Source of the DNA: Isoetes taiwanensis
Lineage: Eukaryota > Streptophyta > Lycopodiopsida > Isoetales > Isoetaceae
Length of the DNA: 64,000 nucleotides
Direction of reading: 5' to 3'
Assembly: GCA_021234155.1 (NCBI GenBank)
Contig: JAJEKV010000001.1
Coordinates: 17,625,382-17,689,381, forward strand
The notes beneath the pieces are model-generated. The model was not told the DNA's origin. It made no database searches and was given only the letters and a program-made list of their open reading frames with translations. Positions 12,782 to 52,934 of the stretch are shown here, piece by piece. The first letter of the stretch is position 1; every line of letters begins with the position of its first letter. The position numbers and the translations under genes are program-made.

Positions 12782-12785
<4 letters not shown>

Positions 12786-12817
<32 letters not shown>

Positions 12818-13430
12818 GCAAGGTGGGTTTTATATTCATAGATTAAATAAGATACATCAAAATATAATAGGACTCCAAAGGAGACCTATTAAGAAAAAGT
12901 AAATCCTCCATATATGGAGGAACAACCTGGTTTAAGATAAATAGATAGGGCATATTCAGGTTGCCAGTTCCTGTGTCCATGGAGCAGCATAGAAAATTTG
13001 ACCAGTCACAAAGAACAGTCCAAAAAAGCATAGCTATTCCTGGGATAGCTTAATGCTAAGGTTGACCTTTAAGTATTTGCTTCGATCAGATCCTGCAGGG
13101 ATAGGTCAGAAACTCTAGAGTTGCCAAAAACACTGAGCATTTCCTCCAGCTCCTTGGTAGTATATGAGGTGAAGTCCATCAGCATAAGCACTCGGGCTTC
13201 CCTCCTTTGTTGCCAGTGGTGAAATAGAGCCTCAAACATAGGCTTTAAGCTGTTGTGTCTCCAAATAGCCTGTTTCTTGAGCAGCTTCTTAATGGCCCTG
13301 GCATGAATCACCTCCTGTTTGAGTAGAATCATGTTTTCTTCCATCCTAATCCTTCACATCTCTTCCACTGCTACCAGGTGATCAGAACTTCTCGGGGGGG
13401 CTCCCATTTGCAGCATCCTCCTGTATCATC
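12786..13430 (-). pseudogene. poly(A)-tailed copy of unknown protein family U1
   Basis: The minus-strand frame reads SDHLVAVEEM, stop, RIRMEENMILLKQEVIHARA, IKKLLKKQAIWRHNSLKPMF, then KELEEMLSVFG and SDLSLQDLIEANT, stop at 13069. It aligns over its whole length with the C-terminal ~95 residues of the proteins at 22249-22746 and 33493-34533: conserved positions are ALK/IKxLL, xxW, LKPxF/FRPLF, ELxxxL and LxDLI. One in-frame TGA breaks it. About 255 bases past the stop, the minus strand ends in 29 A residues (12786-12814). This suggests a reverse-transcribed, 5'-truncated copy. Confidence 0.6.
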
Positions 13431-17039: not shown

Positions 17040-17363
17040 AGGGTAGTTTGCATTTGATTCTTGAGTTTTTTCTGTGTTTTTAGTTAGATTTAGGTATATT
17101 CTAACAAATCTTGCTTGCAAGTGGTCCGTGGAGTATTCTGTCGAGGATCTAAGCTTGTTTTGGAGTTCTGGTGGCGGTTGGAATCCTTTGGAGTCCTTTG
17201 AGAGCCCTTTGTTCTGATTTTTCAGCGTTCTTGCGACCTTTGAACTGATCATTTATAAAATTTGTAAGCAAGATTTATATTCTTATCTCTGTTTCTTATT
17301 TCCTATGCTAATATGTCGTTTTTTGCTGCATGCAGGTGATCTTCAGTGGTCTGGAGGTGCGAG

Positions 17364-18077
17364 ATGGCTAAATGCCGAGTAGTTTTGTTTTTTATATTGT
17401 GTAGTTTCTTAAGCGCTGCTTTTGTGCTTCAAGCACTGAGTTATGGTGAGGTGAGATTTATAGGAATGGATGCGCCTATGTTTAATATTCTGGAAGATCA
17501 GAACACTCTTGAAAATATTACGAACACTATGCATGTTGATTCTGAAGAAATACCTGTTATTTCGATGATAACTGAGGAAATCATGGACATGCATGCATAC
17601 AAGGAAGCAGAGAATGTAGATCCTGCTAGTGTTCTACCTAATGTGCCTTGTTTTGGTAGTTTTGTTGCAGCTGAGTCTTCTAGCTTAGGTCTGTCCGAGT
17701 TTGAGTCGGAACTGGTCAATGAATTTGGAGAGGATGAGATCTTGAAATATATGAAAGAAGCTGAGAATTCTGGCATGCTGAAGACAGTTGTAGTGCCTGT
17801 CAGAAATCCTACATTGCTTTCTAATGCCTGTAGAATGCCATTTGTTGAGCTTGACGAGGAACTTCAAAGACAGGTTAATGCTGGTAGCATTTCTAGGTCT
17901 GCAGCAAAGATACAGTGGGCTAGGAAACGGTTTGACCTTTGGAGGGAGTTTTCTGGAATTAGTACCGAGGTGAGAATTGAGGATATGGATCTTTTAGAGT
18001 TTTCTAGGTTGCTGGAACGTTTCATATTGCAAGTTACGAAGAATAATGATCACATTAGGGCGGATTTAGGATCTTAA
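17364..18077 (+). CDS. 237-aa protein, Crypton/DUF3504-like N-terminal recombinase domain
   Basis: The first ATG (MAKCRVVLF) lies just after a good acceptor (TGCATGCAG at about 17336), so a 5' intron is likely. The N-terminus is hydrophobic (VVLFFILCSFLSAAFVL) and could be a signal peptide or anchor. The middle is acidic. The C-terminal third reads SAAKIQWARKRFDLWREFSG, IEDMDLLEFSRLLERFI and LQVTKNN. This resembles the SAM-like N-terminal domain of Crypton-type tyrosine recombinases and the related ZMYM/QRICH1 proteins (W-x2-W/F, D/E-L-x3-L-x-RF-x2-EV-K). The protein then stops. No recombinase core (R-H-x-x-R-Y) follows downstream, so it is truncated or a derived protein. The assignment is by pattern only. 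Confidence 0.4.
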   Translation: MAKCRVVLFFILCSFLSAAFVLQALSYGEVRFIGMDAPMFNILEDQNTLENITNTMHVDSEEIPVISMITEEIMDMHAYKEAENVDPASVLPNVPCFGSFVAAESSSLGLSEFESELVNEFGEDEILKYMKEAENSGMLKTVVVPVRNPTLLSNACRMPFVELDEELQRQVNAGSISRSAAKIQWARKRFDLWREFSGISTEVRIEDMDLLEFSRLLERFILQVTKNNDHIRADLGS

Positions 18078-21975: not shown

Positions 21976-22248
21976 TAAGCACTGTTTCATTATATATGGA
22001 CTTTCCCTGAGTCCATACGCCTCCGAAATTGACGCACATTTTTGGAATACTATGGTTTTTTTTAATAAAGTGATGCAAATTTTCGGGAAACGTGCAGGTA
22101 GGTGAGATGGCAGGTGCTATTTTTATTAAGCCAAGAAACACACAGCAAACTTGGGGTCGCGCTAAAGCGCCTTCTGTATAAGAGGTGTTGCTAGTCAAGC
22201 TTTGTTTTGCAAATCTGTGTAGCATAGAATCATAACGAAGCAGTGAGA

Positions 22249-22746
22249 ATGGTTGAAACGAGGCGCCGGTATGGACTAACAATGACTGAAATGCAATCCC
22301 ATATTAGTGAGCCAATCTTAGCCCACGCGAATGAGTTGCAGGTTGAGGTGCAGAATGAGATAAACCAGAATGGAAGAAAGGAAATCAGTGGGCAGGTCAT
22401 GAAGCTCCTCCGTGGGGAAGAGTTGTTAAAGGAAAGCAATGATCAACTCAGTAGGGTGGAGTTGGAAGCTTGCCTGATATCATTGAAACGACATGTTTAC
22501 AGGGGAGAGGCCCTGAAGAGGCTACTCGACTTAGAGGATGTTTGGCTGCACAACACCTTCAGGCCATTGTTTAAGAAGCTTTATAAGAAGGAAAAAAGGC
22601 AACGTGAAGCTTTGGTAACCAAGCTCATTGTCAAGACTCCTCACTCGATCCTTGAATTGGATGAATGGCTGGATATGTATAGCAGAAATTACATTGATGA
22701 GTTCGATCTGGGTGATCTTATTCAGGTCGAATTAGGCATTGACTGA
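22249..22746 (+). CDS. 165-aa protein of unknown family U1, single exon
   Basis: Complete ORF from ATG (MVETRRRYGLTMTE) to TGA. It is predicted mainly alpha-helical and charged. Landmarks: ILAHANELQVEVQNEINQNG (about residues 25-44), NDQLSRVELEACLISLKRHV (about 67-86), ALKRLLDLEDVWLHNTFRPL (about 91-110), KKEKRQREAL, then ELDEWLDMYSRN and FDLGDLIQVE near the C-terminus. The last ~95 residues align with the spliced gene at 33493-34533 and the broken copy at 13069-13430, although identity is low. No signal peptide or membrane segment is seen. About 40 bases downstream a LINE reverse-transcriptase fragment begins on the same strand. I do not know the function. It could be a small host gene family or a protein carried by a retroelement. 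Confidence 0.6.
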   Translation: MVETRRRYGLTMTEMQSHISEPILAHANELQVEVQNEINQNGRKEISGQVMKLLRGEELLKESNDQLSRVELEACLISLKRHVYRGEALKRLLDLEDVWLHNTFRPLFKKLYKKEKRQREALVTKLIVKTPHSILELDEWLDMYSRNYIDEFDLGDLIQVELGID

Positions 22747-22784
22747 AACCTGGCTCTCTGATATTTTCTACTCTCTATTCTGTT

Positions 22785-23225
22785 TGCTATATGGTGTTCA
22801 AGTGAAACCAGTGATCCTTTATGGTAGTCCCATTTGGGGGGCAGGATTATCAAAGAAGAGCTGAAATGAAATTGAAAAGGTTCAAAAGAGGTTTTTGCTC
22901 ATAGAATTTGGGGCGAAACCCCAAATACCATATGAAATGTTGTTGGCAGAGGCAGGCATGCTTCCACTTGAGGTAGAAGCTCTTTGCAGGACCATAACCT
23001 ATGTAAATAGGGTACTTGCTATGGATGGTGACCGATACCCTAGATTGGCTTTAGAGCAATCCACTGTTAAAGGTTGGTATTCGGAGGTCAAACATTGGAC
23101 AGCAAGATGGCTAGGTGCAATCTGGACTGTCTCACTTAAGTTCATGGAAGTTCACGCACAGGTTTCTGAAATAGTTGTCAAGAAAATGTGGATATTGGAG
23201 TCAGAAAAAGAGGTTAAGTAGGTTT
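22785..23225 (+). mobile_element. LINE reverse transcriptase C-terminal fragment
   Basis: The plus strand reads VKPVILYGSPIWGAG, a stop, EIEKVQKRFLLIEFGAKPQI, EAGMLPLEVEALCRTITYVN and WYSEVKHWTARWLG. This is the region after the reverse-transcriptase palm in plant LINEs (xLYGSEIWG, EKVQKRFLK, ELGxxPLEVE, YWxRL). One stop codon is present and both sides are missing, so it is a dead fragment. Confidence 0.8.
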
Positions 23226-25098
23226 TCCTATAGATTCAGATTCAAGAGGGCAGCACGTCGACTCTGGATTCTGCTCTAGGTTTTTCCATAGTTTTAGATT
23301 CAGTTTCAAGACTGGCTTTGTTTTGATAGCTCGGTTGCAGCTACTCAGCCTATGGAGAGCCTTGGCTCTTCATTTCATAGATGTTGTCGGCCTATGGAGA
23401 CCTTGCCTCTTCATTTCACAATGGTTGTAGTCATCTGATTCAAGGAGGGATAAGTTATGTAAAATATCTACTCAACAACATTCGAGGTCGCCATGCCTCT
23501 GTTTATAGTTTCATATGTCTCCAGTCAACAACAGGCACATCCCATCTGCAGTTGTTTTCTTTAAGGCCTTGCTATGGCGAGTTTGACTCCAGCCATGCAT
23601 CATTTAATCCGTATATATTAGAAGAAATTCTCGCTGGCATCAATTCTTGGATTTGTTCGGGCTACACGATGAGATATAGGTACAGGTCCTTCACAAGATT
23701 AATTATGTTCTAATCTGCTTATCAAGGCCTTGAAAGGGGTAAAAAAAAAATTTTTGTTAACATAAACCATTACATTCAACACATAGTTTAAGTGCCTATT
23801 CACACGGGGGTGACGTATGGCAACGAGAGCTCCTTTTGTTTTTCTAAAAACTATTTGATACATGTACAAAATCAACACCATTTAGTACATTGCCTCAAAC
23901 CTTATTTTGCAAACCTCGTTATACAGTATGTTGAAAGTATTGAAAGTTGTACAAGCATATTCCATAAACGAGGATCGTTATCTACGGTCTAAATGGACGA
24001 ATAACTGGCAAATGTTCCCATCCAATAGCTCTCGATGTTCAGAGTCAGACCATGTAAATATGCATTCAAACCAAAAGGAGTTTCAGGGAAATTTAAAACG
24101 ATGTGTTGAGTGTAATGCTTTCCGACGCCGGAAGTTTTTTTTTTCGTATTTTTGACGTATTATATTTCAAATTTATGCCATATCATTCGAATAATACGTA
24201 TTGAGTATAAAACGTGTTGAGTATTGAACCAATCCCTGCTCCCAAATCCACTTATGGCTCTTCAAAATCCATATGGCCTGTTATTATGCCAATTAAAAAG
24301 GACCTATGCTCGATACAACCAAGGGTTTACAATAAAAATGGATCTTCTGGATGAATATACTGCAAAAAGAACGCCTAGAAGGACCGGATAATGAAACCTA
24401 GAAGTTCACATTCTTCCATTTATCGATTTTGTGAACCAAACCCAACACGCTCAACAAGTCGAATAACGGATTCCGACCCTACTGCTGCAATTCTGGCCCG
24501 AAGCCCCAGTTCTTGAAAGGAAAGGAGGTCCAAGAACTCTTCGAATGCATTTCACTCATGCCCGATCACAAACCTGGCAAACTTTGAATTTCCACGAGCG
24601 GTGCCATAGCCAGGCTAGGCGATACGAAAAAAAGCAATAGGAGAATCAAATTTTTTGGGGTCGGCCTATTGTTTCCTCATAAACCTACGTGGCATTTCTA
24701 GGAGCAAGCATCAACTAAGGATATTCGAAGAGCATATTTCTATTACGATTATACATGTTTAGAGAATTTATCAGGATCAAATATTCCAAACACCATGATC
24801 CCTTTGCATCTGCCTAACAATCGCCATCAAAAGGTGCTCTTTGGGATATGATAAAGGTTTTTGGCTGATTCATGAGGGCCTAGCAAAGGCCTACAAGAGT
24901 GCTTTTATTCTTCATATGTATAGCTAGTTCTTCAAGCAATTATATTTTATCAAGCAAGCATTGCCACATTCTATAACAACGACCGTGGTAAGAATTATTG
25001 ACTGCCATATATCAAACTCCTGCTCCTTATTACCAGGAAACATCTATAAAAACACAAATAAATTTAAGCCATGAATCTAACACTCACATTACATACAT
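23226..25098. other. no gene; one dispersed repeat copy
   Basis: No supported coding sequence. The stretch around 24655-24770 (TAGGAGCAAGCATCAACTAA followed by GATATTCGAAGAGCATATTTC) recurs at about 32860-32945. Confidence 0.45.
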
Positions 25099-25260
25099 AA
25101 CAAGGTGCTGCGCACGGAGGGTTGCCCTCCGTGACCCGAGAGTGAAATAGCTTAAATCACACTTCAAAGTCATGTTTTCGAGCATATACTGACATATACT
25201 TGGAATATGCCACAAACGCACATGGATGAGAGTTTTCCCCTTAGGGGCAACCCAAAAAAC
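25099..25260 (+). repeat. dispersed repeat R1, full-length copy (both ends)
   Basis: The only copy with both ends. The left end is AACAAGGTGCTGCGCACGG, then the palindrome CGGAGGGTTGCCCTCCG and GACCCGAGAGTGAAATAG. The right end is TTTTCCCCTTAGGGGCAACC then CAAAAAA. The middle carries GCATATACTGACATATACTT. Total about 162 bp. Both ends contain a short GC-rich palindrome with GGGTTGCCC. Confidence 0.8.
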
Positions 25261-26139
25261 TGGACTCAAACATATCAGTGGAATGCTATTTCCATGCCCA
25301 ATTCATAATTCATAAGGCAAGGCATTCAAATACGTTAATAACTCACAAATTCAATGTTGCAAATAGGAAAAAGAAACACAATCCATTGGTTCCATTCAAA
25401 CCTTGAACATATCGCAAGAATGATGATTTCGTTGGTGTTTTAGTTTTCTTTATCGTGGCTCAACACATGCACGCACTGTAGCCCGGTTCTCCAAGATTCA
25501 AGGAATTCGATTTTTTATTGCTATTTTTGTTTTCTAAATTTGGAATTGCCTCTAAGATTTCCAACCACCTTTATTGATTTTAGTACTAAATTGGGGGACA
25601 AAAGGGACATCGAAAATGAGACACCCCAGTGTGCAGACATTTGTTTGGTTCTAAAACTACAAGGTTGAATCCATTATTAATGTTCGACATTTTATGGTAG
25701 AGTATATCTCTCAATTTTGAATGGCGTGGAAGACGATCTTGAATATGTGGGATTTGAATGCCCAAAGTCTAAGCATACGAAAGTGTAATTATAATGGCTA
25801 AGAGATAGCCATGAAGCAACCACCATCCATGAGTATTCATGTTCACAATGAATATATTACATCCAAGAGGCCCTTACAATCTATAAGGTACTCTAATTAT
25901 TAGCCAGATAACTTTATTTATACTTACTCCATATATCATAACCATCATAATTGTATTTAAAGGCACCTAGTTTCATCTCAACAGGGCAACAACAGCTTGT
26001 TTACAAACTTCAGAAAGCCATTTAAGGCTTAAAACAGTCTTCTCGTCAATGGTACAAAACCATCCATATATTTCTCTTCAAAAAAAAGATTCACAAGGAG
26101 CGAATCAGGTTGGAATATATGCTAAGTCTTCTCTCAATA
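25261..26139. other. no gene seen
   Basis: AT-rich sequence without recognisable features. Confidence 0.4.
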
Positions 26140-27690
26140 ACCCTAGGCGCCACTGAAACCCTAGGCGCCATGTAGTGCAGCTTTTCGCCGGCAACACAGT
26201 TTCTAGCATAACTTTTGATCCAGGATTCCGTTTCAGGTGAGGCTTATTGCGTTGGAAAGCTCTTTCCAGGATCTTTCCGATGATGTATGGCATGCCCATA
26301 TTTGGTTACGTTTTCTGTGTCAAAACAGTCCTGTTCCGGCCGGCTTTGGTAGGGTTTGCAGTATTGGATATTGTGTTTCAGATCTTTTAGATTAAGGCTT
26401 CTGCTTTGATTTAAATTTTGTATATAGCCGCTTTGATTTCATTTAGAGAGCTTCACCATGACAGAAAGGGCCAGTAATAAGGAGAGATTTGGTGTAAGGA
26501 TGGCCAGGGAAAAGAAAAAGCCTCCTACTCAGGAATCATTGTTTGCACAGGAGGTCCCTCGTCCCACAAGTGCTCGGTCTAGCATACAGCTCCATGGTCA
26601 AGGGCAAGCTAATTCCAGTGTAATAATGGATTTGCCATCTTCTCTTTTGGTCCCCGCCCTCTTCATATCGGCACAAGCCGCCCTGGTACATTTACCTTCC
26701 AAGATCGGGAGGATCTCCAAAGTGCTTTAGACCCTGCAAGTTCGGTGTTTTCGCCTACACTTCGTGACCAGGTACAACTCATTCATTCTGAGGGAGGAAT
26801 GACGGCCACATCTATGATCGTGTCTATTGAGATATGGACACACTTATTACAGTTAATACATGCCTTCGTTCCAGACCCTAAAGCCCAGTATGTGGGCACA
26901 AGTGATGCCTCAGTACAGACACTAGATACAGAATTACAGCCACAGAAGAAACATTGTGTTGAAGCGGAAGTGCCGACATTGGAAAGGGAACATGTTGAGG
27001 TGGGCATACAGACATCTCCACAATCCCAAGGGGACCAGGAGTCGCAGTGCCGAGCTAGCAGACAGGAGCAGGCTACCTCAGTATCTTCTGTTACTAGGAG
27101 CCTGAACTTGCGTATTATAGGGGTTGCAGAGGCAGAAGATGATGCCCTTTCTGATATGGATGCTGCTTTGCATTTTTTCACTGATGTCATGCATGTGAAG
27201 CCTGGTGGAGTTGTCTCCGCTGCTAGGGTGGGAGCGGCAAGACCTGATCGTCCTCGCCATCTTTTGGTTCGGTTTCAAGACACTCTTAGTAAACACATGT
27301 TCTTCAAAGATGGAAACCATCTTAGAGGGACTAGTTTCTCAAGACAGAGGACCTCTCCCCTCTTCAATTGTGTACCGTAAGGAGGAGCTGCGAAGGTGAG
27401 GGCAGCCCCACCGCAAAAGAAATGGGGTAATGGGGGAGGCGCAGCAATTATTCTAGATCAATGGCCTTCCAATCCTTGGACTGGCTATGTCTAGATAATT
27501 TTAGAAGCATAAATTTACCACTAGCATTAGCATTATCTTATCTTATTCTTGGTAGCCTTTTAATATTTGGTTATTGTGTTTGGTGATGGGGCCTAGTGCC
27601 CAGGTTTTAGATGGGTTGTTGCCCTTGCATGTGCCGTCCCATAACCCGTTGGGTTCCCGTGGACGTAAAAAATTCATCTTATCTTATCTC
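26140..27690 (+). mobile_element. LINE derivative carrying ORF1 only, with 3' tail
   Basis: A probable 5' region starts near 26140 (tandem CCCTAGGCGCCA). A coding region from 26458 (MTERASNKERFGVRMAREKK) continues in shifted frames: GTSRPGTFTFQDREDLQSAL, SSVFSPTLRDQVQLIHSEGG and, at the C-terminus, SLNLRIIGVAEAEDDALSDM, ALHFFTDVM, AARVGAARPDRPRHLLVRF, PLPSSIVYRKEELR and KVRAAPPQKKWGNGGGA. This is the L1-type ORF1 RNA-binding region (NLRIxGxxE, AxRxG, RPRxxLVxF, YRKEELR). At least three frameshifts are present. ORF1 is followed directly by a 3' untranslated region ending GGACGTAAAAAATTC and (ATCTT)n. There is no ORF2, so the element is internally deleted or never had one. Confidence 0.7.
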
Positions 27691-27780
27691 AATTTGTAAT
27701 ATTGGTCGAACAACCAAATATATAAAATGAACTATTCTGTTCATATTTGCTAAAGATTTATAAAGCCACAATGTACCCAG

Positions 27781-27860
27781 CATATGCTAGGCATATGCCG
27801 GCATATACCTGGATATGCCCACAAACCGAGGGTTTGCCCCCCTAGGGGCAACCCAAAAAA
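27781..27860 (+). repeat. dispersed repeat R1, right-end copy
   Basis: CATATGCTAGGCATATGCCG, ATACCTGGATATGCC, CACAAACC, then GAGGGTTTGCCCCCCTAGG and GGCAACCCAAAAAA. Confidence 0.8.
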
Positions 27861-28367
27861 GACTACATTATATATGTTGCGAAAACTGCCACCAACTATA
27901 TAGCTTCACCAAAGCGTGACGATAAATGAAATATCATGATTTCTAGACCATATTGAATGTTTATTCGACTACAAAAGAGACCAATGTATGCAATGAAAAG
28001 CGACATCATTTAGGAACATAAGACAGACAAAAAGGACATGCAAAAGTAGGTGTATGGTGAAGGAAACGCTTTTTAGAATTTTTTGAACTTTACAAAAGAA
28101 ATATTTCATCATTTGATGAAATGGGAAGAAAAATAAATAGTCCAGTAGTAATCGCAAATTAGCAATTGCTCTCGGCACTTAACAATGATGCCCCTCCATG
28201 CAATCATATTGGTGCTTGCCTATAATACATTAAGTGATATACTCTAGTATTGAGCTTGGATATTGGCCCTGCTCTTGTTTTCTGATAAGCCACGAACCAT
28301 TGTTGCTGGTGCTTCCTGTCATAGAAAATAAACAAGGATGAGAAAAACAAGACCATCAATCGCCTCT
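27861..28367. other. no gene seen
   Basis: AT-rich sequence between repeat R1 and the decayed minus-strand exons. Confidence 0.4.
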
Positions 28368-29526
28368 TTATCCTTTACTCTTGCAACTTACATTGTCCTT
28401 CGTCCACAAAGCCAGCTTTCCCTTCAACTTTTTCTTGAGATCATTAAGACTTTTCTCTTCCAGCATGTTTTCCTTATCGACTATGTTACATTTGTGATGC
28501 AGTTCTTCGGTTGACCTTGCACACTGAGAATCTGCATCTTTGATTCCCTGAGAATCTGCAAACAGTCCACTTTGCTTAGGCGTTTCGGGGAATTCCCACA
28601 CACCGCTTGCCGGTCTTTTCTGAACATTTCTTTGATAGCTCCTTTGCAATCTTCTTGATTTGCCTCAAACTTTTGCCCTCTAGGTTCACCTTGCAAACAG
28701 TCTCCTCTTTCTCAATAATCAGCACATCAAGATCCTGCTCCATTGAGTGCACACCCTGCTCTCCTCCATACAATATTTGATGACGCTGTTGGAAGGACTG
28801 ATGAACTATGGCTATTGTACAATCAACATGACTATCTGCAGAAGAGTTTGTCAGCGTAACTTCAATACTTTCTGAAGCATTTTGTTTCCTCTTAGCACCT
28901 TCTGGGTTCACACCATGACTTTCAAGTTGAAAATTTTCCAAATGATCAGCAACGGTGTTGGGCAGGCCAACAGCTGCATTTAGAATGCCATCATTAACAA
29001 TATGCCCTCCATCTAATATGCCCTCCATCTGTCTTACAGGCCTCATGTATCCTAGGGGCATTGCCTGCATTTACGGTCCCCAGAAGTGCAGGTTTGATGC
29101 TAACCTGCTGCTCACCTTCAATCTCATATTGAGATATGAGCTCCAATACATCACCTTCAATATGCGTCCCTGATGTATAAAATTCAATATGCTTTTGCTG
29201 GAGCATCTCATTTTCCGATAAAAGATCTGTATGTAAAGGGCTGATTGGTACGTTATCTTCGACATGGATTTCTGATGCACAGTTTGTCACAGTGGTTGTA
29301 TTTCACAAAAGTGTTGCTTCCAAACTCATCATTTTCCACATCATTGTTCGGAAAATGTTTTTCTGGAGACAACATAGACGCATCAGCAATTTCTTCTGCT
29401 TTCATATTCTTCGACATGGATTTCTGATGCACAGTTTGTGACATTATGGTTGAATTCCACAAAAGTGCTGTTTTCAAATTTATCATTTTCAACATCATTG
29501 TTCAGAAAATGTTTTTCTGGAGACAT
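28368..29526 (-). pseudogene. decayed gene of unknown function with internal ~150-bp repeat
   Basis: Minus-strand protein-like sequence in several frames. A repeated block [20 protein letters not shown] and TNCASEIHVE appears at about 29526-29400 and again at about 29375-29255. Then come ISPLHTDLLSENEMLQQKHI, DVLELISQYEIEGEQQ, a 164-codon frame (29070-28576) ending SLRQIKKIAKELSKKC, and finally MLEEKSLNDLKKKLKGKLAL. Stops and frameshifts interrupt it. It is acidic and low in complexity with short basic helices at the C-terminus, possibly a nuclear or coiled-coil protein. It abuts the broken kinase exon at about 29527 in the same orientation, so the two may form a chimera. Confidence 0.35.
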
Positions 29527-31354
29527 GACTATTATTAAGATCAGGTCCCTGCCTTGCCAATCCAAAATCTGAAAGCTCAGCATCTAACAAAATATTGGAA
29601 GTCTTGAAGTCCCAAAATATTACCTAAACATCAAAACAATAATGTGGTAAGCAGCCCATTGCAGCATGGCCATAGGCATGAATTAAACAGTAAGAGAGAA
29701 ACATTAGCAGCTACATGACACGGTAAAATTTTTGTTTCTGCTCTTCATAACTAAATGAGTTTCTTGAAAATGACGTAAAAACAATTGGTATTCTTCTTTA
29801 TATGATATTATTAAGGACACTTATTTTCCAAGTGAGAGCAAAGACAAATACTTTAGGCCTGTCTAAATCTAAACAAGACACTATCAAGACTTTAGCCTTA
29901 TCATCGACAATCTGGAACCAAAAGACTCAACTAGCAGCCTAAAAATAAAATATAACGCTTCAAATGAATGTTATTATCAAGATTTTGTTATGTGTTCCTA
30001 TTTAACCTCAATTACCCTTCCCTCTGTTAATACATATATTATGCCACAATGTACATATGAACGCAGTTGTGTTGTGCTAAATTCCTTACAACCGCCGTAA
30101 ATCTAGAACTCTCACGTGCGCCAATTTAGATTCTATCATAATTGTAATTCCCAACTAAAAATCAGAAAGCATGTGAAAGAACCTTACCTGAAAATCCATT
30201 TCCTCATGCAAATAAGCTAGGCCCTATGCAGCCCCTAAGGCAATTTGAATTCTTAATTTCCACGGAAGTACAGATTGCCCTTTCCCAAATAGATGGGCAT
30301 CAACACTTCCATTTGACATATATGCATAGACTAGTAACATTTGCGGTCCTCGACTGTCATCCTCAGAACAGTAACCGATAAGCTTCACAAGGTTTGGATG
30401 GTCTACAACGCCTAAGTATTTAACCTCTGACAACCATTGTTTGCGGCCCTGCAACAAACAGGAAACAAATATATCAATAAATTATTGAATCCTTCAGAAT
30501 TCTTGTATGTATAAATCCTGAGGACATAGACACTAAGTTATGCGACCACAAAAAAACAAACTAAAGCACAAAATATTGCTGCATCGAGGAACATTGCAAA
30601 ATTAAGCGAAGGTTGAATATACCATGACGACAAAAAGCATCTATCTGATCATTTTACAGGATATGACATTGGAAGATTAGATTAGGAAAATGAGAAATAT
30701 AGCTAGAAAAGCCTGAATGTTTTCCTGTGCTGTACATGCATCCTTTATGTCTACTCATCATATTTATCAAGAAAGCTTAAATACATGCATAGTAAGTGAC
30801 ATTCTGTACCTGCATTATCTTATCTTATTATTGGTAGCTTTTTAGTATTTGGTTATTGTGTTTGGTGATGGGGCCTAGTCCCCAGGTTTTAGATGGGTTG
30901 TTGCCCTTGCATGTGCCGTCCCATAACCCGTTGGGTTCCCGTGGACGTAAAAATTCATCTTATCTTATCTTATCTTATTCAATTGCTTAACTGCAACTTC
31001 AATCTTCGCATCTCCAGCAGAACCTTTTAATTTAATCCATCCTTTATATACAGAGCCAAAACCCCCCTCTCCTATTTTATTGAAATGGTGGAAGTTTTTT
31101 GTTGCAACTTTCAGCTCAGAAAGGCTGAAAACGCGAAGATCATTATGCCTTACGGATATGCTTGGCAAAAAACCCGTGTCAGGAGAGCCGAAGCTAAGAT
31201 CAGTTTGATAATTTAACTCTGAACCCGATGGTCGTGCTTCAGAGTTAAATTCCCCACTCGAAGATACTCCACTCGAAGAAATCCCATACGAAGCTTTTGT
31301 GGATTTAAGATCAGAATCCTTTCTCTCAAGTTGAGTAAAATTAAAACACTTCAT
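29527..31354 (-). pseudogene. receptor-like cytoplasmic kinase (PBL/RLCK VII type), broken
   Basis: Exon 1 starts at 31354 (MKCFNFTQLERKDSDLKS) and reaches kinase subdomains I-II: FSLSELKVATKNFHHFNKIG, EGGFGSVYKG and VAVKQLN. A LINE 3' end interrupts it at about 30979-30811, after which the remnant TGCAG|GTACAG gives the donor. Exon 2 (30448-30188, 87 codons) reads [38 protein letters not shown], then ALGAA, TAG stop, GLAYLHEEMDFQ, donor CAG|GTAAGG. Exon 3 starts at 29623: [31 protein letters not shown], then breaks off at about 29527. The subdomain VIb Arg is Trp (WDFK for RDFK) and the rest of the kinase is missing. Intact relatives act in immune and developmental signalling at the plasma membrane. 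Confidence 0.85.
30811..30979 (+). mobile_element. LINE 3' end inserted in the kinase exon
   Basis: Nearly identical to 27530-27690: TTGGTTATTGTGTTTGGTGA, TGGGGCCTAGT, GTCCCATAACCCGTTGGG, TTCCCGTGGACGTAAAAATT and a (CTTAT)n tail. It sits antisense inside exon 1 of the minus-strand kinase. The high similarity to the other copy suggests a fairly recent insertion. Confidence 0.85.
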
Positions 31355-31837
31355 ATTCTGCTACTGCTAAACATTCATAAGCTTCGCGTTTTTGCTAATA
31401 CCTAAACCCTAGCCTCGCATGAAATCTGAAAAATCCCACACAAGTGATCAATGAACACCAGAAGCACGGAAATTAAGTCTGATGCAGCGCATTGGTAGCT
31501 GATTGTATAATTTTCTTGTTGCTTGAACTCCAGCTATGGGCTTTTCTTCGGTAGAAAACCAATTTCTTAAATTGCTGAGAAGGAAAACCCCTGGAAATGC
31601 CTTTCAAAACAACAAAAACTAAGAAATTATGCTCAGACAACAGCTTGCTCTGGGTCTAAAAGCTGAGCTTTCCGGCAGGGCTGTGGCTAAGTCGCTGGAT
31701 TGGGTGCTAAAAAGGCTGCTGTGCGCCTCCTCCATTTCCTTTTTGGGTTGGTCCACTGCCAAGAAGGGTCGAGCTGCGCCATAGCCACGCCTGGATGACC
31801 GAGAGTTTACAGGCAGCAGCCAGTTTGGAGCAGTCAC
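31355..31837. other. upstream region of the broken kinase
   Basis: Contains a minus-strand open frame of 81 codons that I do not recognise. It probably includes the old kinase promoter and leader. Confidence 0.3.
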
Positions 31838-31901
31838 TAGCATATGCTGGGCATATGCTGGCATATACTTGAGGGTTTGCCCCCTAGGGGCAACCCAAAA
31901 A
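31838..31901 (+). repeat. dispersed repeat R1, short right-end copy
   Basis: GCATATGCTGGGCATATGCT, GGCATATACTT, GAGGGTTTGCCCCCTAGGG and GCAACCCAAAAA. Confidence 0.8.
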
Positions 31902-33100
31902 GGGTACTATATTCATATATTTATTCGATTACAAAAAAACTCTTTCAACTAAGATCACATATCTATATCTGCAATACATACACAACAAACCAAGACATGT
32001 CAACATTACTCTTCAGTGAACCAACTCTTAAAGAACTTCTTCAAACAGCTAGAACAACTCCAAATTTACCATCCTCGCTATTTTCAACACTAACCATCCA
32101 AGAACAGTCTTCACAACTAAACACAATGTCCACATCAAACACAAGTTCAATAGGACATCAATAGGGACTGTTCGATCCTAATCTTCCCCCCATATAAGAC
32201 ATATCCAAAAAATTAAGAGCATTTCCACTTCATCTATTACAACACCAATATCCTCTAGAGACAAAGCTGAAATCTCCTTATCATACCACAACATCTACAA
32301 TGACATTCCCATCACAAACATAAAAATCCAATGGAGTTTTCCATCTCTTTGCTTAAAAGAAATAACACTCTCATCGTCCTCAAACACAAACCACTAATCA
32401 CATCTCCGATACTGGCAGCTGTTCATCTTCTCCATATGGGATAATCTCCCCATGTTTCCGCTTCTTTGCTGCCATGTTCACACATAAAACAAAACCACCC
32501 TTGTATACATAACTCATAGATCTGTCACCAGACAAACTATAATATGGAATATAATTATCAAATCGGACATTAACTACGGTGATTATCTATATATTCATAT
32601 AATACAACTATCACTATAAGAAAAAAAACACAAACGACACCTCTTCATCAAAAAGTTGCCACCGTCCTGTTGCACATCACTCGAATCTACTCCAGACCCA
32701 TTCTGTCCAATTCCCAACAACTAGTTGTGCCCAAAATTGCCTCATGCACTTCCTTGTCTTTTCAAAACCGACACATGCTCAAAAATTCATGGCATTTTAG
32801 AATTGGTTTTCCCATATTTTTCGGCCTTTTTTTAATCCCTATTTTTTCCTCAAAAATCTAGGTGCCACTTTCTGGAGCAAGCATCAACTAAGAATATTCA
32901 AAAGGCATATTTCTATCACAAATATATATGCTTAGAAATCCGAAATTAAGGATAGTCTTTGCAGCATCTGGGCTGTTGACTTTCTTATATTTCACTAATT
33001 TCATTATAGGGTGTTAGTTATACGTAGAAGCAGATGAAAAGAGTAGCATCTGGTTTCGTCTGAGTCATGGGAGCCAGTAGATTGCGCGTGCCAAATGTTT
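31902..33100. other. no gene; second copy of a dispersed repeat
   Basis: AT-rich. The segment about 32860-32945 (GGAGCAAGCATCAACTAAGA, ATATTC, GGCATATTTCTATCAC) matches 24690-24760. Confidence 0.4.
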
Positions 33101-33104
33101 GTCG

Positions 33105-33228
33105 CAGTCTATTTTCTTGCCAGAATGGCATGAAACTTTGTAGATTCTTTATTATTTTCTTACATGAAATTTTGCAATTATTTCTATCTTCTTGCCAAAA
33201 TGGCATGAAATTTTGCAGATTCATTTCT
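33105..33228. repeat. ~73-bp tandem duplication
   Basis: CTTGCCAGAATGGCATGAAA CTTTGTAGATTC-like blocks at about 33115 and about 33191. A further direct repeat pair (TAGCATTGAGGTTATGCTTC and TAGCATTAAAGTTATGCTTT) flanks a 24-27-base T run at about 33411-33436. Confidence 0.7.
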
Positions 33229-33492
33229 AAGTATATATGGACAAGAGAAAGACTGTATGTGAGGTTTATTTGTAAAATCTTGGCAGTGCAATAGCGAGCA
33301 GAGCTGGTCAGTTATTCCTGTGGACATTGCTTTAATTGGAGTTTAGGGTTTGCCCAAATTCGTTATTAGCATTGAGGTTATGCTTCTAGATGGAAAAAGC
33401 CAAAATTCGTTTTTTTTTTTTTTTTTTTTTTTTGAAGGACGAAAGCCAAAATTTGTTTTTAGCATTAAAGTTATGCTTTCGGATCGGAAAAA

Positions 33493-34533
33493 ATGACTAA
33501 AAGGGTCGGACATGAGGATATAAAGATCAGAAAGGTCAATACATGTATAGATCTAGATGTTGGTCTGAAACTACTGGCGTCTAACTTTACTACCAGACAT
33601 GGCTTCAGAGCCAGACATACAATAGGAATGCTTCTGGAAGAGGCCTATGATGCTTCTAAAAAGGACCTCTGGAAAGTTCTCTGCTCCATGCTACGAGCCA
33701 GGTAATGCTTTCCAATATAGATGAAATATTTTACATTATATTTTTATACCTTTGCAGACCTTCCTTCAACATTTGTGACTGGAAGCTCCAAAAGCCACCT
33801 ATCTTTTGTTCCTGAAATTTGTCTGCATTATCTCTGAGATTTGATATATCGACAGTTCAGTAAGAATGGGTGCGAAAATTGCTCCTTCTTTAGTATGGAT
33901 CAAGTCCAAGATAGAATTCTCGAGTGCACCACTGGTAACTTTTTAGGTTATGCTCCCGTTATCCATATCTATCTTATTCTTATATTCGCCTTTTTTTTAG
34001 GTTAATATCATCAATGGATCTATCAAGAAGCTTGGTAGCCCGATGCTTGAAATAAGTAAGACCTCCTTGTCCAGTTATGTGATTTCCTTTGCAGATTTTA
34101 GAATGCTTTTGTATGCTCATTATTTCCCACAATGTGAGAAACATAAAGCTGATGACTCAAATTGAAATTCAACAGCCAGGGATTAAAAAAACTCCGCCCT
34201 TTTAGATTTTTGAGGAAACAACCTTAGTAGAAAAGCATCATATCAGAGTCACATCAGGAGGTACTCGAAGCTCTCCTCTGGGTCAAAACAGAAACTATTA
34301 TGATTCGAGCACTTAAACGAGTTCTGGAAGATGAAGATATTTGGCAATTCAAGCAAGAGCTTAAACCATACTTTGAAGATAAGCTCGGCATCTGTGAGGG
34401 AGCGCGGGATTCTTGGATCTTACATATTCTGGATGCTTCCGCTTATGGGGCAGTGGAGCTGGACTATCTGCTCAACAAGTATACTGATCAAGCCTATGCG
34501 GTTATAACTCTGGATGGAGTTATGGATGATTGA
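33493..34533 (+). CDS. 209-aa protein of unknown family U1, four exons
   Basis: Exons 33493-33701, 33856-33934, 34001-34055 and 34247-34533 join to exactly 630 bases with no stop: donors CCAG|GTAATG, CTG|GTAACT and AATAA|GTAAG; acceptors GACAG, TTTTTTTTAG and TATCAG. Phases agree at all three joins. The protein starts MTKRVGHEDIKIRKVNTCID. The middle has VWIKSKIEFSSAPLVNIING and IKKLGSPMLEI. The C-terminal domain reads SHQEVLEALLWVKTETIMIR, ALKRVLEDEDIWQFKQELKP, then ELDYLLNKYTDQ and ITLDGVMDD. That domain aligns with 22249-22746 and 13069-13430. There is no signal peptide or membrane segment, and it is mainly helical. An A20 run lies 225 bases past the stop. The function is unknown. Introns argue that this copy is a real gene rather than a retrocopy. 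Confidence 0.6.
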
Positions 34534-34758
34534 GATAGATGTTGAAGAACTTAATATCTTGATGTCCTGCAGATAATTATATTTCCTGTTTTTCTTTGGT
34601 CCATATACCTAAACAGTGTTTCAGTTTACTTAAAATATCCTCCTCGCTCGGGAGAGATAGGCCATTTTGTTTAAGTATGGCCTTATAACAGAGTTACTCT
34701 CTGTATTTTGTATTACTATGTACCTTTTGCATGTAATATAATACTACTGCCGTTTCTC

Positions 34759-34778
34759 AAAAAAAAAAAAAAAAAAAA
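34759..34778 (+). other. A20 run downstream of the four-exon gene
   Basis: Twenty A residues about 225 bases after the stop, preceded by GCATGTAATATAATAC. The position matches the poly(A) of the 13-kb copy (about 255 bases after its stop). Confidence 0.7.
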
Positions 34779-35000
34779 ACATCATAGACACACATTGACG
34801 TGGCTACCAACCTTGCATGTTAGATATATGGATGGGGCCAATTTGACTTTTTCAAAAAACAATTAGTTCCATGATTTCGCTATTTAAGTTACTTCTTGGC
34901 ATAACGATTCCAAAAATGGCCAATCCAAACTATGCTTATCAATTTATCTAAGGTAAGTGGTGGCTAATATTTTACGCCCCTTCAAATATGTAGGGAGATT

Positions 35001-43833: not shown

Positions 43834-45358
43834 CTAGAGGCACAACCTGTCAATGTGCCTCAACTCCCGCAGCAGCAAGGCCCTTGCCAAGTTCATGTGA
43901 CTTCTCAACGGTTGCCTCTTCCTGGCCGACACTGCAACTTCATCCCACTCCATGCTTCCTATGGTCTCCTCCAGCTCGTGAAACAGACGCTCCAGTTGCA
44001 TACGAAGCAGACGCACCAATGCCGCAACAGTTTCTGCAAGAGTATTTATATTCACGATACTGGTGAGCAGTTTGGATGCCACATGCGCACGCTCTACCTG
44101 TGCAGATGCCACAGGAGGATGTGAGAGGCCACTGGAAAATTAGGTTCTCCACAGAGGGGAACTCAGGGAGTGGAGGCTCAACTGATCTGTTGGGAGGGGT
44201 GAAGGACTCCACGACCTCATGCTGCCCATTCTCCACAGAGGCCACATAAGCCATTGGCACATGCATCTTCCTGCACAGCAGGCAGCACTTCATTCCTGTT
44301 AGTCTCCCACAAGCAATGAATCTAAAAGAACTAATAAGTACAAACAAAATAGAAGGAAATGCAAACATGGCAATCCCCCATCCCCATCTCCAGGACTGCA
44401 TGCGTCATCATAATATCTCTTCCTCGCTTTATCCATTCGCTCAATAGGCTGCATGCCTGCAGGGACGTTAAAGATAACACAACGAACATCACTGGGCATG
44501 GTCTGTGATGGCTTCAAAGTTATTCTCCACGCTGCCTTCACATAGTGCTCTGAAATGAAGGCACATTTAGTAGGCAAAATCCATTGGCTAGATAGTATAT
44601 GAACTTCCCCGTCCTCAACATTCGACAAACAGTGTATACACAAGGGAAGCAGTGAGCTACTTCCTTTCATTGTACTTCACAAAATGATGAGCTCTATGCA
44701 ACAAATTCTTATTGTCCAAGACTATGACACTTTTCAAATCACCTGCACCATGAAGAAGGTACAGATCTTTCCCATCTCGATTTGTTTCTCACTCACGTTA
44801 TGGAGGTACACCTTGAAGTGCACCTTGCCAAAATTCTCACGCAATAGCCAACCAGACCCTCAAAGCAATGCATTCTCGTGTTCTTCAGCGCCTTGCAGAT
44901 CAACAAAATACTCGCTAGCTTTTGGGATCCCCACCCAAAGAACCTCTTAATGGTAAGTTCACAACACTTGGTGTTCTCATGCTCGTTCTCAACACCTCCT
45001 GACAATGCAGATGATCCAATTCGGATCCTCTCTCAAGCGCCAGAGCATCTGCAATAGTCTCCTTCTTCACAAAATCCACCAGTGTCTCAAACATGTGGAC
45101 CGGGACGTCCCTCCCAGAATAGCCTAGAGTCAGGTTCACATCTAGCAGCTTATTGCCCTCATTCTCATCACCCACCCTAGCTTTACCCTTACTGTTCCCC
45201 TTTGTATTCCCCACACTAAAAACATCATCTACACAAGGGAAATTGGTCTTAGGAGGAAGGGCCTGCTTTTTACACCTAGCTGCCCTCTTCAACATGTTAC
45301 CTGAATTGCAAACGCAGCTGCAGGCCCGACACCACAATTGCAAAAGATAATTCCACAA
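43834..45358 (-). pseudogene. HUH Rep-like endonuclease of a transposon, decayed
   Basis: On the minus strand, starting within MLKRAARCKKQALPPKTNFP, the sequence reads LLDVNLTLGYSG, MFETLVDFVKKETIADALA, LERGSELDHLHCQEVLRTSM (HxH-Q as in HUH motif II), then after a frameshift TIKRFFGWGSQKLASILLIC and MHCFEGLVGYCVR (Tyr-x-x-Lys/Arg, as in the catalytic Tyr motif). After another frameshift come ENFGKVHFKVYLHNVSEKQI, a stop, SVIVLDNKNLLHRAHHFVKY, a stop, and a 123-codon frame with LSSQWILPTKCAF, VKAAWRITLKPSQTMPSDVR and RYYDD. The order suits a Rep/HUH protein such as those of Replitrons. At least two frameshifts and two stops make it dead. The assignment rests on motifs only. Confidence 0.5.
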
Positions 45359-46759
45359 GATAGTTGCAGAAGCAAACAGATGAAGACAAAGGTGACTTCA
45401 TAGAATTCCTACTCAACACCGATGCAGCCGAAACTGCCACAGACCAGAATTTATATACCACACTTACCTGGGACTCCAATACATGTCGACGAACTCCACG
45501 GCCATATCTTGAAGTCCTCCTCCTTAGCTCCATCGCCTCGGACTGCCATGGGACGACTACAAGGACTCCACCGCCATAAGGAAATCTCCCTTCATCGCCT
45601 CCATGCACCCGCGAGGCCACTGCCGGAACCGCCGCTCGCAGAATGAAAGGAACTCCAACAAACTCCCGGCCATGCAAAACCCAAACCACAATTACTGACG
45701 TCAGCAATATATGGTTGGGGCATACTTATACCCCCCTTAACCATACCAACCTTCCCATCAATTGCACAAGATAATACCTTATGAACACTTACAGCAGGGT
45801 GGCTATACTTAATATTCCTAGATTTATGTACATAAAATTAACATGCATGAACCTTGTGAATCAAAGTGGGGAATAGTCCTAGACAAGCAACAATTTCTAG
45901 GACATAAGGGTATGATAGTTGTGAGGACCTTTGTCATGCATATTTCGTGAAGCAAAGTATTATGTCAATTCCTCAAGTTGTGGAATACCATAGATAAGAA
46001 TTCACCCTGAACTAGAAATTGACTGGGGATAAGTGGGGACGCCTTTCATGCATGACATGTGACCCAAACTATACAAATGTGGCAGGACCCCTAGATCCAA
46101 GTGAAGGACTCCTAGTTCCAAGTGAAGAATGCGTGTCGAGGGAAAGCGCAAATTGGCAGTATTGTATGATACTCTATGCATAACCAACTGACAATTGGAA
46201 GTAATGTAATCTAAGACTCCATGGCAACAAAGATAAACCATTTCAAGGTCAAGCTAATGGGCCATTGGGGAGGCTTAGAAAAAGCTAACAAAAAACAAAA
46301 GAGAAGATTTGGGGCCAAAGAGGGCGATTATTTTGAGCAATAAAAGGCAACACGAAGACGTGCATGGCTGACTGACGGGCTGGCTGCAAGCGATGAATTA
46401 TTGGGCAATCACGTTAAAAAAACCAAGTAAAGCCAAAAAGGGTCACGGATTTATGAACCGAGACATAGCTGCAGATTCTAAAATTTTGGATCAGACATTG
46501 GCAACGGACATAGCCAGCGCACATAGATCCTTCCCAGACCCCGACACGATTTCTAACCTCCTTCTGACAGCCGCTGCAGCATGGTAACACATTACCGTGA
46601 TTTTTGTACGCCCGTTATAAAGCATCTTATGCTACAACGTGAAAACAATTGATTCATATCAATGTGGCATCAGGCTCCTGGCTAATTTATATACCCAGAG
46701 CAGCTGCAGCAGCAATAGTCTATTACACAGAGCTTTCACACAGGCGCCGAGCTCTGGCT
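45359..46759. other. no gene confirmed
   Basis: 45300-45700 is open on both strands but I recognise nothing. It may be the N-terminal or leader part of the Rep-like element. From 45710 to 46759 only short frames are present. This includes the upstream region of the proline-rich gene, with no clear TATA box identified. Confidence 0.35.
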
Positions 46760-48723: not shown

Positions 48724-49490
48724 ATGCAAAAAAAATTCTTGCGGGGGCTAAGCGGTTGCTGCCATGCACTAAACTTAGTGGATCAGCAGGCACTTACATA
48801 TACGTTTCAAATTTCCCCTGTAAAATTCCCCGCTGTTGCCAGTTCTGATCCTGAGCTTTTGCAACAATATCTCAATGGTCGTTTTTCTCAAAAGATATGG
48901 GACGCAGTTACTTTGGCCCAAGTGAAAACTGGTCATTATCATGCACACATAAATCCCACCTTGGCACCAGGGCCCCAAGCTTATTTGCTTGCTTCATTGT
49001 CCAGGAACAAGCTTGTAGCTATTGCATCAATTCAAGACGGGGTCCCACAAGCTACGGGATTGAGCAGGGTAGATGGGAGCGGCCGCAATTGCCGCGAGAA
49101 GCGAGACTATGTGCCTGTTGCCGCCATGTGTTATTGAAGATGAAAGCCATACTCTTCGAAGGTTGCCCTGCTTTTGAGATAGTCCGGAATCATTTTTGAC
49201 CTTAGCATTCCATTCCACGCTTCCACAACTTCTCTCGAGCACCATCGTGTGCATGACTTGGCATTATACATACTTGAGGTTCTAGATAAACGTGCGCAAT
49301 TCGCGAGCCCTCAGTAGTCATTATCTCTGCTTGTCTAGTATCATCATTACTGCAAAGGTTTTTCCCTTGAAAACCTTTCGAGGCAGGGGTTTTTTAATCC
49401 TAGTAGTAATGATTGTACTAGCCCATTGTATGGGTTCCATGACCTATTGGTCTCCGTGACGTTAAAAAAACTATTCTATTCTATTCTATT
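48724..49490 (+). mobile_element. LINE C-terminal end with (CTATT)n tail
   Basis: A plus-strand frame (48724-49137) of LINE ORF2 C-terminus: LNGRFSQKIWDAVTLAQ, then in the next frame YGIEQGRWERPQLPREARLC and ILFEGCPAFEIVRNHF. The latter is the typical GR-x-R-x3-PREERLCxxC...H-x-L-x-CPAY motif of plant LINEs. The H position and a frame are damaged. The 3' untranslated region runs through GGTCTCCGTGACGTTAAAAA to (CTATT)4 at 49472-49490. Confidence 0.75.
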
Positions 49491-51172: not shown

Positions 51173-51660
51173 TAGAATTGAATCGAATTGAATTGGATTT
51201 TATCATCCATGGAGACCAAATGGCCTATGGGACCCAAACAAAAATAAACAAATACAGAGAGCAGTCAACCTTTTACTGTCCATGATTAAAAAATCCTTGT
51301 CTTAAAGGGTTTTCGAGAAAAAAATTAGCAGTTGTAGGCTTAATGACAAATTATACATTTGTACCTGGCTATATGATGATCAAGAGCATAACTGAGCCTC
51401 CATATCCAATATCTCATGAATGTAAGATGCCAGGACTCCTATTGCATGTATGTTCATCAGCGCAGAAGTGGTCGGATAGGTGTGACCAACCCCTCATAAT
51501 GTGTCCAAATAGGTGCAAATGCTGGGCAACATTGAAGAGTGTGGTCCTCATCTTTAAAAGTTGGCTACAAGGGACCACTTGCAACCATGAAACAAAATCA
51601 TCATTTTTAGAGACTCTACATACCATCTTTTGGAGGAGCATGCTAGAATGATGATTGGAA
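51173..51660 (-). mobile_element. LINE C-terminal end (minus strand) with (GAATT)n tail
   Basis: On the minus strand at about 51545-51470 the frame reads EDHTLQCCPAFAPIWTHYEG L, the LINE C-terminal H-x-L-x2-CPAF motif. Farther down the strand, AAAACCCTTTAAGACAAGGA, GGTCCCATAGGCCATTTGGT and CTCCATGGATG lead into a GAATT-rich tail (plus 51173-51197). Confidence 0.65.
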
Positions 51661-51768: not shown

Positions 51769-52229
51769 TCATTATTTGATTAACTTGTCACGTTTATGTT
51801 GATATCTTTGGCTGTAAAGGGAAAGGTCGGCAATAGTGGACCATAGTAGAATTGATCAAATTTACTAATAATATCGAATAAAGTAGGTGAAAAATGGGTT
51901 CATTGCTAATTATGAGTCTTGGTCTATCATAGAAAATTTGAATGGTCCGTTTTATTATGAGTAGACCCAATTTCATGGGTAGATTTTATGGGAGAATGCA
52001 TCTGACCCATAAAATCTACCCATGAAATTGGGTCTACTCATAATAAAACGGATCATTCAAATTTTCTATGATAGACCAAGACTCATAATGAGCAATGAAC
52101 CCATTTTTTACCTACTTTATTCGATATTATTAGTAAATTTGATCAATTCTACTATGGTCCACTATTGCCGACCTTTCCCTTTACAGTCAAAGATATCAAC
52201 ATAAACGTGACAAGTTAATCAAATAATGA
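51769..52229. repeat. 461-bp near-perfect inverted repeat (long hairpin)
   Basis: Two 224-base arms, 51769-51992 and 52006-52229, are reverse complements with no indels and only about five mismatches. They are separated by a 13-base loop. The centre is CCCATGAAATTGGGTCTACT-type sequence meeting at TTATGGG/CCCATAA. The twin 60-codon frames on opposite strands are a consequence of the symmetry. No clear target-site duplication flanks it. It ends 30 bases before the methyltransferase-like ORF. Confidence 0.97.
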
Positions 52230-52259: not shown

Positions 52260-52934
52260 ATGAAAACAAAAAGAAAATATTCGGAGTTATTTACAGGTAA
52301 ACCCAAGTTCTCATGGGCAGCTATGGAAGGCGACTTCGTCCTCAAGAGCCAAGCAAAAACCTCTTATGTCTATTACATAGTGAAGGAGCTGGTTCCATTG
52401 GAAGGTTGCGTTCTGGATTTCTTCTCAGGCGGAACTGCCTCAAGGGTAGCTTTGATGCAAGGAAAACGGAGTATTGCTTTTGAGTATGACGACAAGGTTT
52501 GCCGTTTCCTTAGATCTTTCTTCGAGATTCTTGAGAAAATGGCAAGGCCTGACAAGGAAGAGCAAGGTTACGACATGCCGGATGTTAATATAACACAGGG
52601 AACAGATCTCCGCAAGATGGATCAGATACTAACCGGCCTGGATCAGAAAAGTTTCGAAGAGAGGCTGCAGGAGACCCGGGCACTGATAGAGAAGACTGAG
52701 AAGGCACAGGCAAAACTAGATCCAACTTTCAAAAAGCTTGAAGCACTGAACAAGAACATGGACTCCTTACTGCCAATAATAACCAAGCAACTGGACAAGC
52801 CGATTCCTAATTTTGAGTACGTGGGAACTTCTGAAGGCGCCTCCGGAAGTGAGAGAACCTCTGCCGACCCTTCACCAAAAAGACGTAAGCCTATGGTACC
52901 CCTCATGAATATTCTTTGGCATTGCAGGATCTAA
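52260..52934 (+). CDS. DNA-methyltransferase-like motif protein with coiled coil
   Basis: ORF from ATG (MKTKRKYSELFTGKPKFSW) to TAA, 224 codons. Residues about 45-75 read LVPLEGCVLDFFSGGTASRV ALMQGKRSIAFEYD. This matches the SAM-binding region of beta-class N6-adenine/N4-cytosine DNA methyltransferases (VLDxFxGxGTT, then GRxxIGxE). The catalytic (D/N/S)PP(Y/W) motif is not seen in this ORF or in the hairpin upstream. The rest is charged and helical (EERLQETRALIEKTEKAQAK) and ends with a basic patch SPKRRKP that could be a nuclear signal. The last ~10 residues may be intron read-through. A short downstream frame (53033 on, MDSPRTLAIGKEHIARLAAQ) may be another exon. It is probably a partial or domesticated methyltransferase. 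Confidence 0.45.
   Translation: MKTKRKYSELFTGKPKFSWAAMEGDFVLKSQAKTSYVYYIVKELVPLEGCVLDFFSGGTASRVALMQGKRSIAFEYDDKVCRFLRSFFEILEKMARPDKEEQGYDMPDVNITQGTDLRKMDQILTGLDQKSFEERLQETRALIEKTEKAQAKLDPTFKKLEALNKNMDSLLPIITKQLDKPIPNFEYVGTSEGASGSERTSADPSPKRRKPMVPLMNILWHCRI

Follow-up and report, generated by a model that had tools for sequence, protein, structure and literature searches.

Protein domain U1 of Isoetes taiwanensis, probably carried both by LINE retrotransposons and by a DNA transposon

A 64,000-nucleotide stretch of the genome of the lycophyte Isoetes taiwanensis (C907:17625382-17689381, hereafter the window) contains three loci, copies A, B and C, that share a C-terminal protein domain of about 95 residues, here called U1, and the question they raise is whether this domain belongs to the plant or to the mobile elements in its genome. 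An earlier description made from the letters of the window without database searches (the sequence-only reading) had proposed one unnamed, diverged domain with its spacing kept, and had named as possible sources a host family expanded with retrocopies or a protein carried by a retroelement. The comparisons given here indicate that the three loci are probably copies of one undescribed small protein carried by two unrelated kinds of transposable element (TE), namely long interspersed nuclear elements (LINEs) and a DNA transposon with terminal inverted repeats (TIRs). The features concerned, including open reading frames (ORFs), untranslated regions (UTRs) and target-site duplications (TSDs), are as follows.

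21977..22785, plus strand: left end of the transposon, cut at 22785, with the terminal repeat AAGCACTGTTTCATTAT at 21977; a block common to other copies
22249..22746, plus strand: U1 copy A, a 165-amino-acid (aa) transposon ORF; at least 151 matches listed in the search of its own genome
33493..33701, plus strand: "exon 1" of B in the sequence-only reading, an unrelated low-copy sequence outside U1; 7 genome matches
34243..34779, plus strand: 5'-truncated LINE 3' end with copy B, 3' UTR and poly-A (34759-34779); similar to locus L060, CATCATA on both sides
34249..34533, plus strand: U1 copy B domain, 94 aa; at least 150 matches listed in the same search
12785..13420, minus strand: 5'-truncated LINE 3' end with copy C, 3' UTR and poly-A (poly-T at 12786-12814 on the plus strand); 10-bp TSD, similar to locus L061
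13069..13353, minus strand: U1 copy C domain, 94 aa, with one in-frame stop just upstream; at least 150 matches listed in the same search

The homology of the C-terminal domain across the three copies was assessed with phmmer, run in both directions on the six-frame translation of the window, which returned full-sequence E-values of 1e-15 to 6e-15 between A and C, 4e-8 to 3e-7 between B and C, and 4e-4 to 2e-3 between A and B. With copy A as the query, the A-C and A-B matches scored 51 and 15 bits, compared to a maximum of 7.2 bits in 40 Markov-shuffled 64-kb windows. Twelve residues are invariant in the alignment of A, B and C (in A numbering K80, A88, K90, L93, W99, P106, F108, R119, E136, L137, L141 and L154), and the K, W, P-x-F and E-L positions are fixed in their spacing, bearing out both the single diverged domain and the conserved positions that had been claimed for it. 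The sequence-only reading had also considered the intact frames notable. Copy A is indeed one open frame, of 172 codons, a length of which 0.09 examples per window would be expected by base composition, but frames of at least 172 codons are present in 6 of 40 dinucleotide-Markov windows. As the length of this frame is thus not unusual, it is the homology, not the ORF length, that carries the case for the domain. The N-terminal halves of A and B show no similarity beyond chance (330 of 2000 shuffles were as good), nor do the 3' UTRs of A, B and C, and the codon comparison of the three copies is saturated, with synonymous divergence (dS) of 1.8 or infinite.

The domain was unrecognised by Pfam, PHROGs and the PDB sequences at the thresholds used, and a literature search of partial coverage met no U1-like LINE ORF. 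The question of a known retrotransposon ORF, which the sequence-only reading had left as a way in which its proposal might fail, therefore receives a divided answer, in that B and C do sit in retrotransposons but these collections miss the domain. A structure predicted from 20 sequences is all helical (predicted local distance difference test 76.9, predicted template modelling score 0.74; an earlier model from 3 sequences reached 61 on the first of these), and a fold search with it gave no convincing match. Protein-database searches with the A and A1 queries found no match either, which is uninformative, as that database contains few such proteins: when the transposase-like protein described below was used as a control, one relative was found. 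Viral contigs and prokaryote genome contigs likewise gave no match, which is also uninformative.

By their sequence, copies B and C read as 5'-truncated 3' ends of L1-like LINEs. The sequence-only reading had joined four exons at 33493-34533 into a 630-base ORF. The B locus, however, is 85.6% identical to L060 over 535 columns, with the genome homology beginning at 34248 and running to the poly-A at 34779, and the insert is flanked by direct repeats, CATCATA at 34236-34242 and 34780-34786, which at 7 bp are short and lie under the 9-bp minimum of the first TSD scan. The 7 genome matches of the supposed exon 1 comprise the sequence itself and six others at 47-60% identity, every one of the six with a stop. 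The four-exon gene was rejected, its exon 4 being the LINE insertion and its exon 1 an unrelated low-copy sequence, so that the apparent splice site coincides with the 5' end of the insertion. Separately, at 33352-33490 a T24 run stands between near-identical AAAGCCAAAATT(C/T)G in a short tandem duplication, possibly a very short retro-insertion.

Copy C is 91% identical to L061 over 386 columns and carries a 10-bp TSD, GATGATACAG, at 13430-13421 and beside the poly-A. Its earlier description as lying at 13430-13069 with one in-frame stop and a poly-A tail stands in the latter two respects, whereas its initial bases, from 13430, are part of the target duplication. The proposal of a protein carried by a retroelement accordingly holds for B and C, as LINE 3' ends.

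The LINE context of the domain was read in three loci of 1.0-1.5 kb each, two of the B type (L059 and L060) and one of the C type (L061), and in all three U1 is the last ORF. In L059, it forms the end of a long frame (listed as 1286 aa, of which 498 aa were read), fused to a part bearing the zinc finger domain zf-RVT (E 1.4e-5, 26.1 bits, just under the cut-off of 27.5). In L061, zf-RVT was found above the cut-off (E 8.8e-10) in the frame upstream of U1, itself broken, and the last 71 nt of this upstream frame are shared with the 128-aa U1 frame, which lies in +1, the first ATG being taken as the start. The corresponding overlap in L060 is 26 nt, also in the +1 frame and from the first ATG, and this locus was assigned its zf-RVT context through 75% DNA identity to L059. 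L059 and L061 have homologous upstream frames (score 291, with 0 of 500 shuffles as good), which makes the two LINE types look like a single lineage that carries U1 at one and the same position. Further fusions may be represented by B-type U1 matches at G000:C1018:38055363-38055644, C974:18248755-18249036 and C1090:1282393-1282668, which lie in frames of 1092, 311 and 370 aa, respectively.

Copy A is an ORF of a TIR (class II) DNA transposon. This context was missed by the sequence-only reading, and with it the family spans two TE classes. The block that holds copy A starts at 21977, and 25 of 29 other copies begin within 25 bases of that point, the remaining 4 starting only about 60 bases inside; the window copy ends at 22785, and most other copies extend beyond that position. 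The left transposon end was found with 0-5 mismatches of 25 in all 16 A-type loci fetched, which had been picked because they carry U1, and U1 reads inward from a position about 270 bp in from the left inverted repeat. A full element, read on L040 and L047, measures 11,635 bp, with inverted-repeat ends identical at 21 of 25 bases and CTTG on both sides. A second copy, on L032 and L048, has LINE-like frames inserted (by eye), an inverted tail and a 4-bp TSD, AATC, such that both copies with the far end read show a fixed-length duplication of 4 bp. Toward the right end reads a gene of the DUF7869 family (PF25273; E 4.6e-35 on L042 and 1.9e-33 on L047), whose protein had as its best match among PDB sequences a repressor at E 0.14. 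Between it and U1 lies an opposite-strand gene, part of which shares about 41% identity with window positions 52260-52934 across 76 residues. Those other frames of the element that were scanned against Pfam yielded no Mutator-type match, and the transposase-like frame matches only PF25273. Small transposon frames that look alike by eye (a pattern of L-PW, IH and W) occur at L034:7122-7418 (minus), L034:7394-7819 (plus) and L036:7001-7297 (minus).

The transposon also carries a repeated palindrome, AATTGGGC-N4-GCCCAATT, of which 73 exact occurrences were counted in 157 kb (the 16 loci, flanks included) compared to a mean of 0 in 20 shuffles. The spacer is 4 in 73 of 85 cases, and 64 of the 73 palindromes fall outside six-frame frames of at least 120 aa, which cover 45% of the sequence. 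This repeated motif is a candidate site for binding by one of the transposon's proteins. Half sites are densest in L044 (C1076:1870000-1879800), with 48 in 9.8 kb compared to 4 in the 64-kb window.

Copy number and selection were examined in the I. taiwanensis genome (1,658,258,908 bases, 1110 contigs). For copy A, at least 151 matches are listed, the best 151 of 2729 first-look, unconfirmed candidates, at 58-100% identity; the corresponding figures are the best 150 of 1767 first-look candidates at 68-100% for B and the best 150 of 2932 at 51-100% for C. A hand count of the matches listed found about 100 of 151 (A), 138 of 150 (B) and 121 of 150 (C) to be stop-free, numbers that over-represent intact copies, since only the top-scoring matches are listed, the window's own copy among them. 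Across the 30 A-type copies fetched, of which 12 contain a stop, the median ratio of nonsynonymous to synonymous substitution (dN/dS) was 0.27 (415 of 435 pairs with dS 0.05-1.5), and one pair exceeded 1. The four available LINE pairs gave 0.04 (B-L060), 0.09 (B-L059), 0.09 (L060-L059) and 0.08 (C-L061). These ratios point to purifying selection on U1 in both the LINE and the DNA transposon setting, in line with the selection suspected from the kept spacing.

We consider it likely that U1 is an accessory protein encoded by TEs, not a host protein, and that it serves a step common to both element classes. A host gene family whose messenger RNAs or genes were captured repeatedly by elements and as retrocopies seems to us very unlikely. 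Capture of host genes is common among TEs, and a low-copy parent would be compatible with the matches listed, the best 150 or so per copy; yet the sole intron-bearing candidate, B, turned out to be a LINE insertion beside unrelated sequence, a transposon end is present in 16 of 16 fetched A-type loci (again, loci picked for U1), and U1 follows homologous upstream frames in both LINE types. The earlier suggestion of a host family expanded with retrocopies finds no support. We give even less credence to the LINE U1 being a passenger, i.e., a 3'-transduced exon amplified without function. Transduction adds sequence at the 3' end of a LINE, and U1 does sit at that extreme end, but the dN/dS of 0.04-0.09 in the four LINE pairs measured speaks against a passenger, as does the retention of U1 by the B- and C-type LINEs through their divergence.

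A stronger rival, though one we still hold to be unlikely, makes U1 a structural partner to the machinery of the element that carries it, binding nucleic acid or multimerising in a LINE particle or a transposition complex, with no host target. The LINE U1 is produced jointly with the ORF2-like frame upstream of it or as a fusion to that frame, which agrees with this, and the predicted all-helical structure would suit an assembly protein. On the other hand, the two classes use unrelated enzymes, which makes one partner for both less natural, and the domain searches found no nucleic-acid-binding domain in U1.

Comparison with known systems helps to place a shared accessory protein. The LINEs resemble L1-like plant LINEs in the zf-RVT frame upstream of U1, the poly-A tail, the 5' truncation and the TSDs of varying length. 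Canonical L1s end with ORF2, and the present elements differ from L1-like plant LINEs in that zf-RVT is followed by U1, an additional ORF or C-terminal domain that is conserved. The right-hand transposon gene resembles DUF7869 proteins (E 4.6e-35), a family to which Pfam gives no stated function and whose name we did not find mentioned in a literature search of partial coverage. The gene here is accompanied by U1, a methylase-like gene and palindromes within an 11.6-kb TIR element with a 4-bp TSD. VANDAL transposons are Mutator-like. Those of Arabidopsis encode VANC, a protein that attaches to a motif recurring within the element and brings about a loss of methylation from DNA (PMC5735166). 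The present transposon has in common with that system accessory ORFs in addition to a transposase, and a short motif that recurs in non-coding parts of the element. In contrast to VANDAL, its transposase-like gene matches only DUF7869, and its motif is a 20-bp palindrome, a candidate site only. Bdelloid rotifer ORF3s are common to long terminal repeat retrotransposons and Penelope-like Athena elements (PMC5408684), and resemble U1 in being one type of accessory ORF across unrelated mobile elements. ORF3s, however, are shared among retroelements (PMC5408684), whereas U1 joins a retrotransposon and a DNA transposon.

For the accessory protein that we favor, a sequence of events can be proposed. 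U1 would have moved between the DNA transposon and a LINE lineage, probably from LINE to transposon, given that U1 follows homologous upstream frames in both LINE types and that the transposon U1 is closest to the C type (43-68 bits between A and C types, 35-44 between B and C types, and 16-29 between A and B types). U1 would then serve its common step outside the chemistry of transposition, because the LINE and the transposon share U1 but no transposition enzyme. A host-directed step appears likeliest by analogy, either counteracting silencing or drawing in a nuclear or chromatin factor of the host, and we put this at somewhat below an even chance. The full proposal, which we offer tentatively as possible rather than probable, is that U1 is a portable host-directed propagation factor, an anti-silencing protein or chromatin recruiter, passed in a lycophyte between a class I LINE lineage and a class II transposon, where it works alongside a DUF7869 transposase and palindromic recognition.

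Several points weigh against the reading of U1 as a TE accessory protein with a host-directed role. Unequal rates could mimic the bit-score pattern taken to indicate transfer from LINE to transposon, the direction is drawn from three U1 groups with no root, and the comparison of A with the B-type U1 of L059 is not significant (E 0.22). The LINE context comes from only those three loci of 1.0-1.5 kb each, and the reading of the right end with its TSD comes from 2 of the 16 transposon loci, of which one is rearranged. As the best 150 or so of 1767-2932 candidates are listed, a host parent of low copy number may have escaped notice, and the host-directed role stands on the logic of sharing and on the VANC analogy.

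Well conserved in its sequence, U1 may help both elements spread, and if the portable-factor proposal is true, one accessory gene serves elements of unrelated transposition chemistry. Little is understood about the accessory genes that plant TEs carry, and a shared, conserved U1 separates what elements need for moving, where their enzymes differ, from what they need for persisting in a host, which is shared and becomes testable. DUF7869, an uncharacterised family, gains an element context of TIR, 4-bp TSD and partner genes. On a practical level, the many stop-free U1 frames could be misannotated as host genes.

Two further stretches of the window touch on these elements.

22868..23110, plus strand: what remains of another LINE-like frame, following the cut transposon; 40.7% in tblastn (E 2e-14) against a frame of locus L034
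52260..53668, no strand assigned: methylase-like fragment (52260-52934) with a TIR-like end (53652-53668), possibly related to the transposon but diverged; a frame of the transposon matches at about 41% over 76 aa (E 9e-11)

The first has the look of a reverse transcriptase by eye only, with no Pfam match, and a frame of the L034 locus is also matched at 49336-49485 and 51181-51363 at 41-50% (E 2e-8 and 4e-10). In the second, the fragment matched PF01555 at E 0.008, below the cut-off, and a PHROG DNA methyltransferase at E 0.0025, and the TIR-like end is inverted and agrees at 14 of 17 terminal bases. Directly before the fragment lies a 461-bp near-perfect inverted repeat (97%) at 51769-52229.

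Elsewhere in the window, a 245-aa open frame at 17340-18077 (plus) has no Pfam match, and we take its end to recall the N-terminal part of Crypton-like tyrosine recombinases. A 255-aa frame at 26613-27380 (plus) resembles a LINE ORF1 in the way it reads, and Pfam gives only a weak, unrelated match for it. At 44915-45397 (minus), there is a weak match to the Replitron HUH endonuclease domain PF21859 (E 0.0011, below the cut-off).

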